Virus record (IMG/VR): IMGVR_UViG_3300005528_000195
Span: 1-24,022 of that record
Reading direction: 5' to 3' (one strand)
Source: a virus
Length of the DNA stretch: 24,022 nucleotides
Shown: one piece after another, positions 15,283 through 18,235 of the stretch
Layout of the letters: every line of letters begins with the position of its first letter
Position numbering within the stretch: the stretch's first letter is position 1
Translations under genes and position numbers: made by a program
The notes under the pieces: generated by a model
What the model was told of the DNA's origin: nothing
What the model saw: the letters and a program-made list of their open reading frames with translations, nothing else
Databases searched by the model: none

Positions 15283-15485
15283 GGGTTGAACGTGATGGTG
15301 TAGCCCTCCGGAGCGGTCCACCCAATGCCGTCGACGGCTTCCTTTGCGTACCCGGTGGCCCACTCGATAGCCATCTTCCGGGTCTCCTCGTCGGTGTAGG
15401 TGATGAGCGCCGTGACCTTGATCTCGACCCGTTCACGGGGGCGGGGCGGCGTTGGCGGCACGGGGAATGTGGTTTGGTGGCTCAT
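15279..15485 (-). CDS. Small hypothetical protein between methyltransferase and primase
   Basis: This is a 68-aa protein with start and stop both in 4-base ATGA overlaps with its neighbours. It has a Pro-rich N-terminus (TTFPVPPTPPRPRERV), then a compact alpha/beta segment: EIKVTALITYTDEETRKMAI, EWATGYAKEAVDGIGW and the final APEGYTITFNP. The strand-helix-strand layout suggests a small stand-alone domain. No family was recognised. The tight coupling suggests co-expression with the primase-helicase. Confidence 0.75.
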   Translation of the reverse strand: MSHQTTFPVPPTPPRPRERVEIKVTALITYTDEETRKMAIEWATGYAKEAVDGIGWTAPEGYTITFNP

Positions 15486-16915
15486 GGGTGCATGAGTTCC
15501 TGCATCAGGACGCGGAAGGCGCGTTCTGCGGTGGCTGGGACGACACCGTTCCCGAGCAGTCGAAGCTCGTCGGTGCGATTGTCACAGGAGACGCACAACT
15601 CGGCATAGTCCAGCCCACCGGAAGTCCCATCAGTGTCTCCACCCAGCGTGGGTTCAGTTTGCCGTTCGTTGTCACCTTCATCTGGCTGTGCAGCGTGTCC
15701 GGCTTTCCGTTGTGTGCTCCCGAGTCCATCTCGGCCCTCGGTGTCGCCCAACTCTGAGCTTGCTGATGCAGCGTCGGCCTGAACTCCGGGCTGCTGTATC
15801 CCTCGGTCTTGTTCGCACGAGGGGTCGCCCACTGCTTGTCCGTCGCACACTGTTTCTGCTGCTGTACCGCAATCGTCAGCGGTGTCCCCATGCCATTCCC
15901 GTTGTGGTGTTTTGCTATGTTTCTCGCCTTCCTCGCCTCCCAACTCTCCAGCGTTTCCCCGTCGTTCACCACGGCCCCGCTGGGCGTCGGCCACTGCTTC
16001 ACCTGCGTGTCCAGCTTCGGGATCATGCTGCCGTCCTTCTGCTGATGCGCTCTGGTCGAGACGGTTGGCGTCTGCCACCCAGCCAATCCTGCGGAGGAAG
16101 TCTGTGCCGTCTGATCCGACGACCCTTGGCGGCTCCCATCCGTACTGGGGTTGTCCGGGGCGGCTGGGCCAGATTTCTTGAGCTTGTCCCGATCCGGGAG
16201 TCCAACAATGGATGGATGGTTCGACAGGCACACCTGTCCGAAGTTGGGTCGGTTTCCGATCTTCCCGCCGTCCGCTGTCGCTGGTGTCGGCCAGTTCTGG
16301 ACGGTGATGACCGCCTGATCCAGTGATGCCATGGAACGGTCCTTTCCATCCGCCCTGATCATGGATTCTGGCCGATAGGCGCCCTTGAAATCCCTCGTCG
16401 TTGCGGTGGGCCAGGATGAAGACGCGCTTTCGCTGGTGCGGTGCGCCGACTTCAGCCGCTGAGAATATGCCCCACGTCGTTCCGTAACCCAGTCGTCCCA
16501 AGTCTTCGATGACGTCGCGCAGCCCCAGGCTGATATGTCCTTCGACGTTCTCGAAGAAGCAGAGTCGGGGTCGGAGAAGTCGAATGCCATCTGCGATCCA
16601 AGGCCAGAGGTGGCGGGGGTCGTCCTTTCCTGCCCGCTTCCCTGCTGCGCTGAAGGGTTGGCAAGGATATCCGCCAGTGAGGATGTCCACACGGTCGCGA
16701 AATGCTCGCCAAGGGAAGGTTTTAAGATTCGGCCAGATAGGTGCTGGGTCCATGAGTCCCGCTTCCATTTTTGCGACCAGGTTCGCGATGGCAAAACCTT
16801 CGATCTCACAAAGAGCGACTGAGCGCAGATTTGGGATGACTCGGTGGAGTCCAAGCTCAATGCCGCCGTATCCAGCGCAAAGGCCGATGTGTGTAGTTGC
16901 TTTGGTAGAATCCAT
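15482..16915 (-). CDS. C5 cytosine-specific DNA methyltransferase with an expanded recognition region
   Basis: This is a 477-aa protein. Motifs appear in family order: motif I LCAGYGGIELGL (12-22), motif IV GGYPCQPFSAAGKRAG with catalytic Cys85, motif VI FENVEG (Glu122), motif VIII GAPHQRKRVFILA (157-169), and motif X-like ELRLLGNGVVPATAERAF (450-467). It transfers a methyl group from S-adenosylmethionine to C5 of cytosine. The role is likely protection from host restriction; no partner endonuclease is encoded nearby. Residues of about 205-445, where the target-recognition domain lies, are long, very hydrophilic and contain repeated ADT/GDT/ADA turns (LADTSDSGRR, WVADANR, ELGDTEGRD). Each of these corresponds to a W-x-T-P in the overlapping frame. 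The specificity cannot be read. Confidence 0.85.
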   Translation of the reverse strand: MDSTKATTHIGLCAGYGGIELGLHRVIPNLRSVALCEIEGFAIANLVAKMEAGLMDPAPIWPNLKTFPWRAFRDRVDILTGGYPCQPFSAAGKRAGKDDPRHLWPWIADGIRLLRPRLCFFENVEGHISLGLRDVIEDLGRLGYGTTWGIFSAAEVGAPHQRKRVFILAHRNDEGFQGRLSARIHDQGGWKGPFHGITGSGGHHRPELADTSDSGRREDRKPTQLRTGVPVEPSIHCWTPGSGQAQEIWPSRPGQPQYGWEPPRVVGSDGTDFLRRIGWVADANRLDQSASAEGRQHDPEAGHAGEAVADAQRGRGERRGNAGELGGEEGEKHSKTPQREWHGDTADDCGTAAETVCDGQAVGDPSCEQDRGIQQPGVQADAASASSELGDTEGRDGLGSTQRKAGHAAQPDEGDNERQTEPTLGGDTDGTSGGLDYAELCVSCDNRTDELRLLGNGVVPATAERAFRVLMQELMHP

Positions 16916-16920
16916 GTCAT
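15505..16920 (-). CDS. Overprinted 471-codon ORF with WxTP repeats, in another frame of the methyltransferase gene
   Basis: This frame opens at an ATG (16920) five bases before the methyltransferase ATG and stays open for 471 codons on the same strand. The first 120 codons look like shadow sequence. From FDFSDPDSASSRTSKD onward it carries six regularly built repeats: WPTA (170), WPTP (210), WQTP (282), WPTP (310), WATP (364), WATP (391). These are followed by LNPRWVETLMGLPVGW (422-437) and a Ser/Pro/Cys tail. I recognise WxTP repeats plus LNPxWVExLMGxPxGW as a recurring phage ORF type linked to C5-methyltransferase genes. In one 60-base sample (15601-15660) third-position G+C is 14/20 in this frame and 10/18 in the methyltransferase frame, weak support for coding. 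Translation, and where it starts, are unproven. Confidence 0.5.
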   Translation of the reverse strand: MTWILPKQLHTSAFALDTAALSLDSTESSQICAQSLFVRSKVLPSRTWSQKWKRDSWTQHLSGRILKPSLGEHFATVWTSSLADILANPSAQQGSGQERTTPATSGLGSQMAFDFSDPDSASSRTSKDISAWGCATSSKTWDDWVTERRGAYSQRLKSAHRTSESASSSWPTATTRDFKGAYRPESMIRADGKDRSMASLDQAVITVQNWPTPATADGGKIGNRPNFGQVCLSNHPSIVGLPDRDKLKKSGPAAPDNPSTDGSRQGSSDQTAQTSSAGLAGWQTPTVSTRAHQQKDGSMIPKLDTQVKQWPTPSGAVVNDGETLESWEARKARNIAKHHNGNGMGTPLTIAVQQQKQCATDKQWATPRANKTEGYSSPEFRPTLHQQAQSWATPRAEMDSGAHNGKPDTLHSQMKVTTNGKLNPRWVETLMGLPVGWTMPSCASPVTIAPTSFDCSGTVSSQPPQNAPSAS

Positions 16921-16933
16921 GTCGGTGATGGTG

Positions 16934-18235
16934 TTAGCGTGCGTGGAATGCGAGGGCCTCTTCGGATACGAACCAGCCCTTGGGCCATTCGGTGAGGTGG
17001 ATGCCGGCGAGTGTCCGCACCCTGGACACGGCGACGTAGGCCTGTCCCGGCTCGCGTGCTGCCCGGATGTCGATGCGTGCGGCGTCCAGTGTGAGCCCCT
17101 GTGCGCGGTGGATGGTCATGGCGTAGGCCAACCGCAACGGGAACTGGCTGATGCGGACCTTCATGCTGTCGAACTCCCACTTGGCCATCTCGACGTCGAC
17201 GTGTTGGCCCTGCTGTGTGAGCACGCGGATGCTGTCGTTGCCGAGGTTGACCACGGTGCCGATCTGTCCGTTGACGAAGCCGGCCTCGGGATCGTTGCGT
17301 GTGAAGATGACCGCACAGCCGTGCTTGAGCACCAGTTCCTTCGGGCTGGGCATGTTCCGCAGGCAGAACTCCATGTTCTTGGGATCTCCGGTGGCCTCGG
17401 CGGTGTAGACCTTCTGCTCGCCTGCGATCCCGTCGAGCCGGTAGGCGTTCCACTTGTCGACTTGGGTGTTGTGGGTCATCAGCCGGGTGATCTCAGCCCG
17501 CGGGAACATGGACACCCTTGAGCGCAGGAGGTCGGCGTCCTGCCGCCTCATCTTGCCTGTCCGGAAGGCGCCGAGGGCCTCGATGAAGGCCGGGTCCGAC
17601 TGCCGGTGGACCTTCTCCAGGCTGATGGCCTTGAGGTCGGCCTCGGCCCACGACCGGGCGTTGAAGGCCCAGTCATAAGGCCTGCTAATGTCCGTCCGCA
17701 CCGGGGGCAGCTGGAGGAAGTCGCCGAGGAAGATGACCTGCAGGCCGCCGAAGGGTGTGGAGTCCTTGCGGCACCGGCGCAGCCAGAAGTCGAGGAAGTC
17801 CAGCTGGCTCCCTGCCATCATGCTGATCTCGTCGATGACGAGGACGTCGGTGGCCTCGACGCGCCGGATGGCGTGCTTGGTCCACGGTTCACGCTCCAGT
17901 TCCTCGGCGAACGTGTTGTGGTCCTGTCCTTCGGCGGGCCCGAGCATCATGCCGGACCACCGGTGGACCGTGGTGCCGCCGATGTTGAGTGCAGCGATGC
18001 CTGTGGGGGCGCAGATGGCGACGGTCTTGGAGCGCATCTCCGGGGTGGCGAGCAGCTTCCGGAGGAGCGTGGACTTCCCGGTGCCGGCCTGCCCGGTGAG
18101 GAAGACGTTGCCGCGGGTGGAGCCCCAGGCGAGGAAGCGGTCCTCCGGGGTCGGGTCGAAGTCGTCGTCGGTGTCTGGTGCGAGGTATGACGGTGTCAGA
18201 CCACTGAACACCTTGGGTATTGCCTTGTGGATCAT
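16934..18235 (-). CDS. Pif1/RecD-like SF1 helicase
   Basis: This is a 433-aa protein starting at the ATG at 18235, two bases after the exonuclease stop. Helicase motifs in order are Walker A GQAGTGKST (48-56), motif Ia CAPTGIAALNIGGTTVHRW (75-93), Walker B VLVIDEISMM (131-140, Asp135/Glu136) and motif III GDFLQLPPV (171-179). The C-terminal AYAMTIHRAQGLTLD (370-384) and YVAVSR (400-405) correspond to motifs V and VI. The APTGIAA, GDFLQLPPV and IHRAQGLT set is characteristic of the Pif1 family (SF1B, 5'-3'). It has little beyond the helicase core. A role in replication-fork progress or recombination is likely, next to the exonuclease and SSB-like genes. Confidence 0.88.
   Translation of the reverse strand: MIHKAIPKVFSGLTPSYLAPDTDDDFDPTPEDRFLAWGSTRGNVFLTGQAGTGKSTLLRKLLATPEMRSKTVAICAPTGIAALNIGGTTVHRWSGMMLGPAEGQDHNTFAEELEREPWTKHAIRRVEATDVLVIDEISMMAGSQLDFLDFWLRRCRKDSTPFGGLQVIFLGDFLQLPPVRTDISRPYDWAFNARSWAEADLKAISLEKVHRQSDPAFIEALGAFRTGKMRRQDADLLRSRVSMFPRAEITRLMTHNTQVDKWNAYRLDGIAGEQKVYTAEATGDPKNMEFCLRNMPSPKELVLKHGCAVIFTRNDPEAGFVNGQIGTVVNLGNDSIRVLTQQGQHVDVEMAKWEFDSMKVRISQFPLRLAYAMTIHRAQGLTLDAARIDIRAAREPGQAYVAVSRVRTLAGIHLTEWPKGWFVSEEALAFHAR

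Follow-up and report, generated by a model that had tools for sequence, protein, structure and literature searches.

Two co-extensive reading frames in a phage gene probably encode the two chains of a split C5-cytosine methyltransferase

The window analysed here, a 24,022-nucleotide stretch of viral DNA (IMG/VR record IMGVR_UViG_3300005528_000195), carries on its minus strand two long open reading frames that start five bases apart and both remain open for about 470 codons. The first-pass annotation had described such a pair, and its description holds. The C5-cytosine methyltransferase frame, alpha, lies at 15482..16915 (-) and encodes 477 amino acids. The WxTP-repeat frame, beta, is +1 relative to alpha, lies at 15505..16920 (-) and encodes 471 amino acids belonging to the PHROG_1008 family. 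The two start codons are nested in ATGACATGG (16911..16920, minus strand), with the beta ATG at 16920 and the alpha ATG at 16915. No obvious restriction partner gene adjoins the locus within the window.

Alpha matches Pfam DNA_methylase (PF00145) with an E value of 4.6e-31, and the match is confined to residues 10-175. Its single chain carries the motifs of a C5-cytosine DNA methyltransferase, all on the minus strand: motif I (IGLCAGYGGIELG, read from the sequence, 16850..16888), motif IV with the catalytic PCQ (16637..16675), motif VI (FFENVEG, containing ENV, 16538..16558) and motif VIII (GAPHQRKRVFIL, 16412..16447), each in invariant columns, and motif X (the RLLGNGVVPATAERAF region, 15518..15577). 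Alpha thus holds motifs I-VIII and X, but motif IX, which PF00145 enzymes carry in the same chain, is absent. Motifs I, IV, VI, VIII and X had been recognized correctly in the first-pass annotation, where the missing motif IX went unnoticed. A conserved island of alpha, WPSRPGQPQYGWEPPRVVG (residues 249-267; 16115..16171, minus strand), lies within the repeat region and is the last conserved piece of alpha in the AquI-like relatives L114 and L136. The structural model of alpha resembles M.HhaI in fold (E 8.6e-14) over residues 1-190 and at the motif X helix; between them the chain is disordered, with no folded small domain.

Beta contains six W.T(P/A) repeats, at codons 170, 210, 282, 310, 364 and 391, followed by LNPRWVETLMGLPVGW (codons 422-437; 15610..15657, minus strand), all as first noted. 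The repeats of the two frames are visibly locked together in the DNA, WVADANR in alpha being WQTPTV in beta and LGDTEGR being WATPRA. Beta matched PHROG_1008, a phage family named 'DNA methyltransferase', with an E value of 7.5e-23, and the beta of phage phiEc4 matched it with 1.2e-61. There was no match to beta in Pfam or NCBIfam, nor to a known fold by PDB profile search, and its AlphaFold model is mostly of low confidence (mean pLDDT 52).

Searched with beta, viral contigs yielded 62 loci, mostly with 34-60% beta identity and nearly all with both frames open over their full length. With the beta of phiEc4 as query, tblastn found 221 phage records from many genera. The first-pass statement that phage C5 methyltransferases repeatedly have ORFs of this type nearby was right. 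A second search was made with the methyltransferase-domain alignment alone, so that loci were not picked by beta. In nearly all of its 80 loci beta had no stop between the alpha start and a point near the end of alpha, the exceptions being L145 (one stop), L081 (an insertion) and truncated contigs. The homologues are mostly metagenomic contigs, and named phages are fewer in the tests below. Both frames are open in N15 gp58, K1G, phiEc4, eiAU, JC01, W5, RcMcDreamy and R6L, and also in Paenibacillus phage Bloom, Synechococcus phage Sc-Yong805-2, Alfacinha3 and C75C1. The overlapped gene is present in the common laboratory E. coli phages K1G, Bas73 and N15.

Some loci depart individually from this pattern. 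In L018 (641-643) a lone nonsense codon stands in alpha just before GIFSASE with beta intact, and is either an alpha mutant or a sequencing error. In L055 (3001-4884) beta continues in frame beyond motif IX into the downstream coding region, giving an open frame of 628 aa. L081 (1146-1697) and L153, Komagataeibacter phage phiKX1 (2275-2793), have HNH-endonuclease-like ORFs inserted at their motif IX codons or next to them; the alpha frame stays open through both insertions, and no self-splicing intron was found there with Rfam. They resemble the 'hidden HNH' insertions described previously (PMC11855218), but sit in this methyltransferase family.

Motif IX is required in C5 methyltransferases, where it follows the target-recognition region and precedes motif X. 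Single-chain relatives of the window enzyme, in which repeats, motif IX and motif X share the catalytic frame, align with alpha only over motifs I-VIII. Residues 414-438 of beta align with residues 327-351 of these single-chain enzymes, mycobacteriophage ShiLan gp70 and prophiGD91-2 gp27 (E 2.4e-5), where the aligned segment directly precedes motif X. A profile of the IX-X region gave C5 methyltransferases (plant DRM) as its sole significant PDB matches (E 3e-4) and matched M.HhaI IX-X with an E value of 3.7e-5; the motif IX similarity covers about 25 residues. Judged by these alignments, the end of beta, LNPRWVETLMGLPVGW, is the C5-methyltransferase motif IX that alpha lacks, and it is highly probable that beta is the methyltransferase subunit bearing this motif.

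The relatives form a natural series of arrangements. In ShiLan gp70 and prophiGD91-2 gp27, LPTP repeats, motif IX and motif X follow the catalytic domain in one chain. Two neighbouring genes, with repeats, IX and X in beta, are found in Gordonia phages Upyo (gp54/gp53) and Float294 (gp62/gp61) and in Mycobacterium phage Keziacharles14 (gp82/gp81). In Upyo the repeats are coded alone, as a separate gene and with no overlapping methyltransferase chain. In the overlapping metagenomic loci L088, L114, L136 and L146 motif X comes after motif IX in the beta frame, and alpha ends after the conserved island or earlier. The betas of these four, aligned with the two-gene forms, match the window family along the whole length (E 1.8e-75). 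In the window and most relatives the overlap is full and motif X is in alpha. Motif IX does not belong to beta in every phage: in Rhodococcus phage ReT1v-2 the LPTP repeats lie in +1, and alpha holds both IX and X. Since alpha has no motif X in L088, L114, L136 and L146, a complete enzyme there needs beta. That one or the other chain may carry motif X argues strongly for the production and joint use of both.

Two observations concern changes of frame. The methylase genes of Jarcob (L155) and ShiLan (L159) are near-identical, one chain in ShiLan and split by a frame change into gp69/gp70 in Jarcob, so that a single indel may be enough to fuse or split the chain. In L049 (2889-4480) frame changes join the W.TP repeats, motif IX and motif X in a third frame after an N-terminal part of alpha; this is either an assembly error or a natural frame swap.

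These arrangements bear on whether beta could be translated as a separate protein, such as a regulator, an anti-restriction protein or another partner, that overprints the methyltransferase while standing outside the enzyme. The N-terminal half of beta is conserved over the catalytic domain (w_beta 0.52 in the substitution test below) with no match to a known fold, Pfam or NCBIfam, which suggests that beta may do more than supply motif IX. However, the conserved end of beta is the motif IX absent from alpha, motif X moves into beta in relatives, and ShiLan gp70 and prophiGD91-2 gp27 have repeats and motif IX on the same chain as the catalytic domain. We consider a separate protein improbable. 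The first-pass proposal of 'a partner or anti-restriction protein' is right only in part: the sequences point to a subunit of the methyltransferase, with motif IX and probably the target-recognition modules, and nothing suggests a separate anti-restriction protein. Beta is best read, from its motif content, as the second subunit of a split methyltransferase of the M.EcoHK31I/M.AquI type.

The start sites of beta are arranged in a few recurrent ways. Overlapping starts of the form ATGTGG, in which the alpha GTG lies two bases on from the beta ATG, were found in 77 of 119 loci, and the ATGACATGG type, with the alpha ATG five bases after the beta ATG, in 18 of 119. All 11 phages of the Kagunavirus type have their beta start 88 bases into alpha, and Kagunavirus alleles include betas of 220 to 273 aa. 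A Shine-Dalgarno-like site precedes the beta ATG in about half of the loci and is lacking in about half; in the window none is obvious before the beta ATG. An upstream ORF of 729 aa, helicase-like by eye, terminates about 13 bases before the beta ATG (window 16920-16936). With this ORF ending so near, and with no obvious Shine-Dalgarno site, translation of beta and alpha may be coupled to it.

To obtain a null expectation for stop codons, synonymous codons were shuffled within one frame, keeping its protein and codon usage, and the third frame served as a control. In the window the +1 frame stayed open in 0.6% of alpha synonymous shuffles, and the alpha frame in 0 of 2000 synonymous shuffles of beta. 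Over 50 relatives there were 0 stops in +1 versus 270 expected, with 931 versus 930 in the third frame; the reverse test, counting alpha stops with beta shuffled, gave 0 versus 645. In the 68 distinct loci of the methyltransferase-only search, beta stops numbered 1 versus 283 expected in the catalytic part (third frame 524 versus 507) and 3 versus 119 in the repeats (third frame 590 versus 619). Stops were in excess in the last 20 alpha codons of the same loci, where beta ends (120 versus 59 expected). Ten named phages showed 1 beta stop versus 51.5 expected (control frame 150 versus 132), and this sole stop is beta's own stop codon, in Sc-Yong805-2.

An overlap-aware substitution test, with four site classes (nonsynonymous or synonymous in each frame) and 27 disjoint pairs, gave w_alpha 0.47 [0.40-0.54] and w_beta 0.55 [0.50-0.61] overall, the dSS estimates resting on few sites. 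The catalytic part had w_alpha 0.21 and w_beta 0.52, and the repeat region w_alpha 0.82 and w_beta 0.54. In the motif IX region w_beta was 0.15, and in the last 21 alpha codons, where beta is only a tail or has ended, it was 1.05 [0.56-2.13]. Alpha-synonymous, beta-nonsynonymous changes occurred at a rate of 0.62 in the last 21 alpha codons, up from 0.26 in the catalytic part and 0.19 in the motif IX region. In an independent set, ten Kagunavirus phages and Salmonella phage W5, the overlap had w_alpha 0.30 and w_beta 0.43 [0.33-0.55]; upstream of the beta start, constraint on beta was not apparent (1.68 [0.73-3.74]). The values in the repeats indicate that beta is the preserved frame there and that alpha is nearly free. 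What the first-pass annotation called an expanded, low-complexity recognition region of the methyltransferase is better described as a near-neutral alpha linker atop the modules of beta. That annotation had left the choice between true dual coding and a by-product to a frame-specific comparison of homologues. In this comparison frequent stops in the WxTP frame were not seen and beta residues were constrained, which supports dual coding. Given these patterns of purifying selection, both frames are almost certainly selected as protein.

The same data bear on programmed frameshifting, in which alpha would be read through motif VIII and a +1 shift would then give a single chain with the WxTP repeats and motif IX. 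The single-chain state does occur, in ShiLan, and a frame change is what separates Jarcob from it; the two states therefore interconvert. Such a mechanism nevertheless needs no open beta over the catalytic domain, where stops are 1 versus 283 expected and w_beta is 0.52; beta has a fixed start of its own, as in all 11 Kagunavirus-type phages, and a hybrid chain of the window type would lose motif X. Frameshifting is thus very unlikely, and as the main mechanism it was ruled out by the beta constraint over the catalytic domain together with the fixed beta start. It is hardly credible that codon bias, repeat sequence or a DNA-level element produced the +1 frame as an untranslated by-product, although wobble choices in VADA/LADT repeats naturally yield WPTP in +1: alpha synonymous shuffling with the third frame as control, by which this reading was rejected, predicts many stops where none or few occur, beta is under tighter constraint than alpha in the repeats, its constraint vanishes where it ends, and Upyo codes the repeats without any overlapping methyltransferase chain.

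The WxTP repeats divide beta of the window into six cassettes on the minus strand. Cassette 1 (WPTATTRDFKG..., 16294..16413) belongs to a family of 3 members, cassette 2 (WPTPATADGG..., 16078..16293) to one of 5, and cassette 3 (WQTPTVSTRAHQQKDGSM..., 15994..16077) to one of 18. Cassette 4 (WPTPSGAVVNDGE..., 15832..15993) is a singleton, and cassettes 5 (WATPRANKTEGY..., 15751..15831) and 6 (WATPRAEMDSGAHNG..., 15658..15750) belong to families of 2 and 7 members, respectively. In 71 betas 246 WxTP units were counted, with a median length of 38 aa in a first pass; they fell into 104 families at 60% identity. Neighbours varied for 41 of 43 shared cassette families, and identical units occur at differing places across phages. 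Two units of the same family within one protein were seen once, versus 7.0 expected (P = 0.005). An origin of the repeats by duplication within the protein was rejected, since the units of one protein are mostly unrelated.

A beta holds 0-8 cassettes before motif IX, and single-chain relatives have their repeats in the same place. Several distinct modules therefore lie between motifs VIII and IX, as in multispecific C5 methyltransferases. Distinct, exchangeable and non-redundant modules in the recognition region are as expected of a multispecific enzyme, and on the strength of this pattern we lean slightly towards the view that the beta cassettes are target-recognition modules. The cassette sequence WPTPT[VAS] partly resembles the 'TL' consensus P[STCA]PT[ILV][TASV] of recognition domains (PMC2413257), a likeness offered as a lead only. 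By analogy with what is reported for the M.EcoHK31I alpha chain, the island at residues 249-267 of alpha could itself carry out or share target recognition.

Taken together, these data suggest that the locus is very probably a dual-coding gene for a split C5-cytosine methyltransferase. Alpha would provide the catalytic chain, in which a long linker joins motifs I-VIII to the motif X helix. Beta, from the ATG nested with the alpha start, would provide a second chain consisting of the WxTP cassette array with motif IX at its end. The two chains would assemble into an active enzyme as in M.EcoHK31I or M.AquI, and the array would allow one enzyme to methylate several sequences, so that the phage could shield its DNA from several host restriction enzymes. 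In the broadest form of this reading, to which we give about an even chance, a very widespread class of phage C5 methyltransferases would consist of a catalytic alpha and a co-extensive +1 specificity subunit beta, built of combinatorial, non-redundant, exchangeable WxTP target-recognition cassettes, and cassette swaps would re-programme the methylated sites while rewriting both proteins at once.

Annotation of these genes is inconsistent at present. Kagunavirus records (L065, L150 and L163-L170) name alpha only, beta only (as 'putative methyltransferase') or both, and the Paenibacillus phage Bloom record lists both. If the split-enzyme reading is true, many phage 'DNA methyltransferase' annotations describe half an enzyme, beta is currently filed as a hypothetical protein or a duplicate methyltransferase, and cloning alpha alone would give false negatives. 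The locus would also be a very long same-strand dual-coding gene of tailed phages, about 470 codons here and more than 550 in some relatives, and cassette combinations could be linked to methylation specificity and host restriction. The series from one chain through two genes and part overlap to full overlap bears on the origin of overlapping genes.

Among phage proteins, ShiLan gp70 and prophiGD91-2 gp27 resemble the window system in having LPTP repeats followed by motifs IX and X, homologous to the beta end, and differ in that everything is in one frame with the catalytic domain. The PHROG_1008 profile corresponds to beta extended at its end by motif X, an AquI-like layout, and the family name obscures that its frame and chain differ from those of the catalytic family, PHROG_363. 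Trautner et al. in 1996 reportedly found that the modules of multispecific Bacillus subtilis phage C5 methyltransferases are about 40 residues long. The present enzymes share with those of the SPbeta/phi3T-type phages a series of modules, each about 40 residues long, placed after motif VIII and before motif IX, but here the modules are on a second polypeptide in the other frame, bear a WxTP signature and are combinatorially shuffled. A plasmid search for an EcoHK31I-like system gave no record so labelled, the matches being mostly named DNA cytosine methyltransferase. In the literature searched, no description was found of the phage-wide overlap, of full overlap through the catalytic domain, of the cassette array or of motif frame-hopping. 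Lee et al. in 1995 are said to have reported that another reading frame inside the gene for the large subunit of M.EcoHK31I encodes the small subunit; the second polypeptide of the window likewise lies in an alternative overlapping frame.

Split C5 methyltransferases are known: the small subunit of M.EcoHK31I has motif IX alone and its large subunit motifs I-VIII and X, and the small subunit of M.AquI has motifs IX and X (PMC3404938). The M.AquI (CYCGRG) arrangement is like that of L088, L114, L136, L146, Upyo, Float294 and Keziacharles14; IX and X are on the second polypeptide in L088, L114, L136, L146, L156, L158 and L161. The window differs from it in having motif X in alpha and coding regions that overlap almost fully. 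Compared by description, the window is like M.EcoHK31I (YGGCCR) in having I-VIII and X on alpha and IX on beta. It differs from M.EcoHK31I in the extent of beta, which in the window type covers all of the alpha gene and with it the catalytic part, in the 0-8 shuffled WxTP cassettes that such betas hold, and in being phage-borne. Enzymes of this kind are thus already known.
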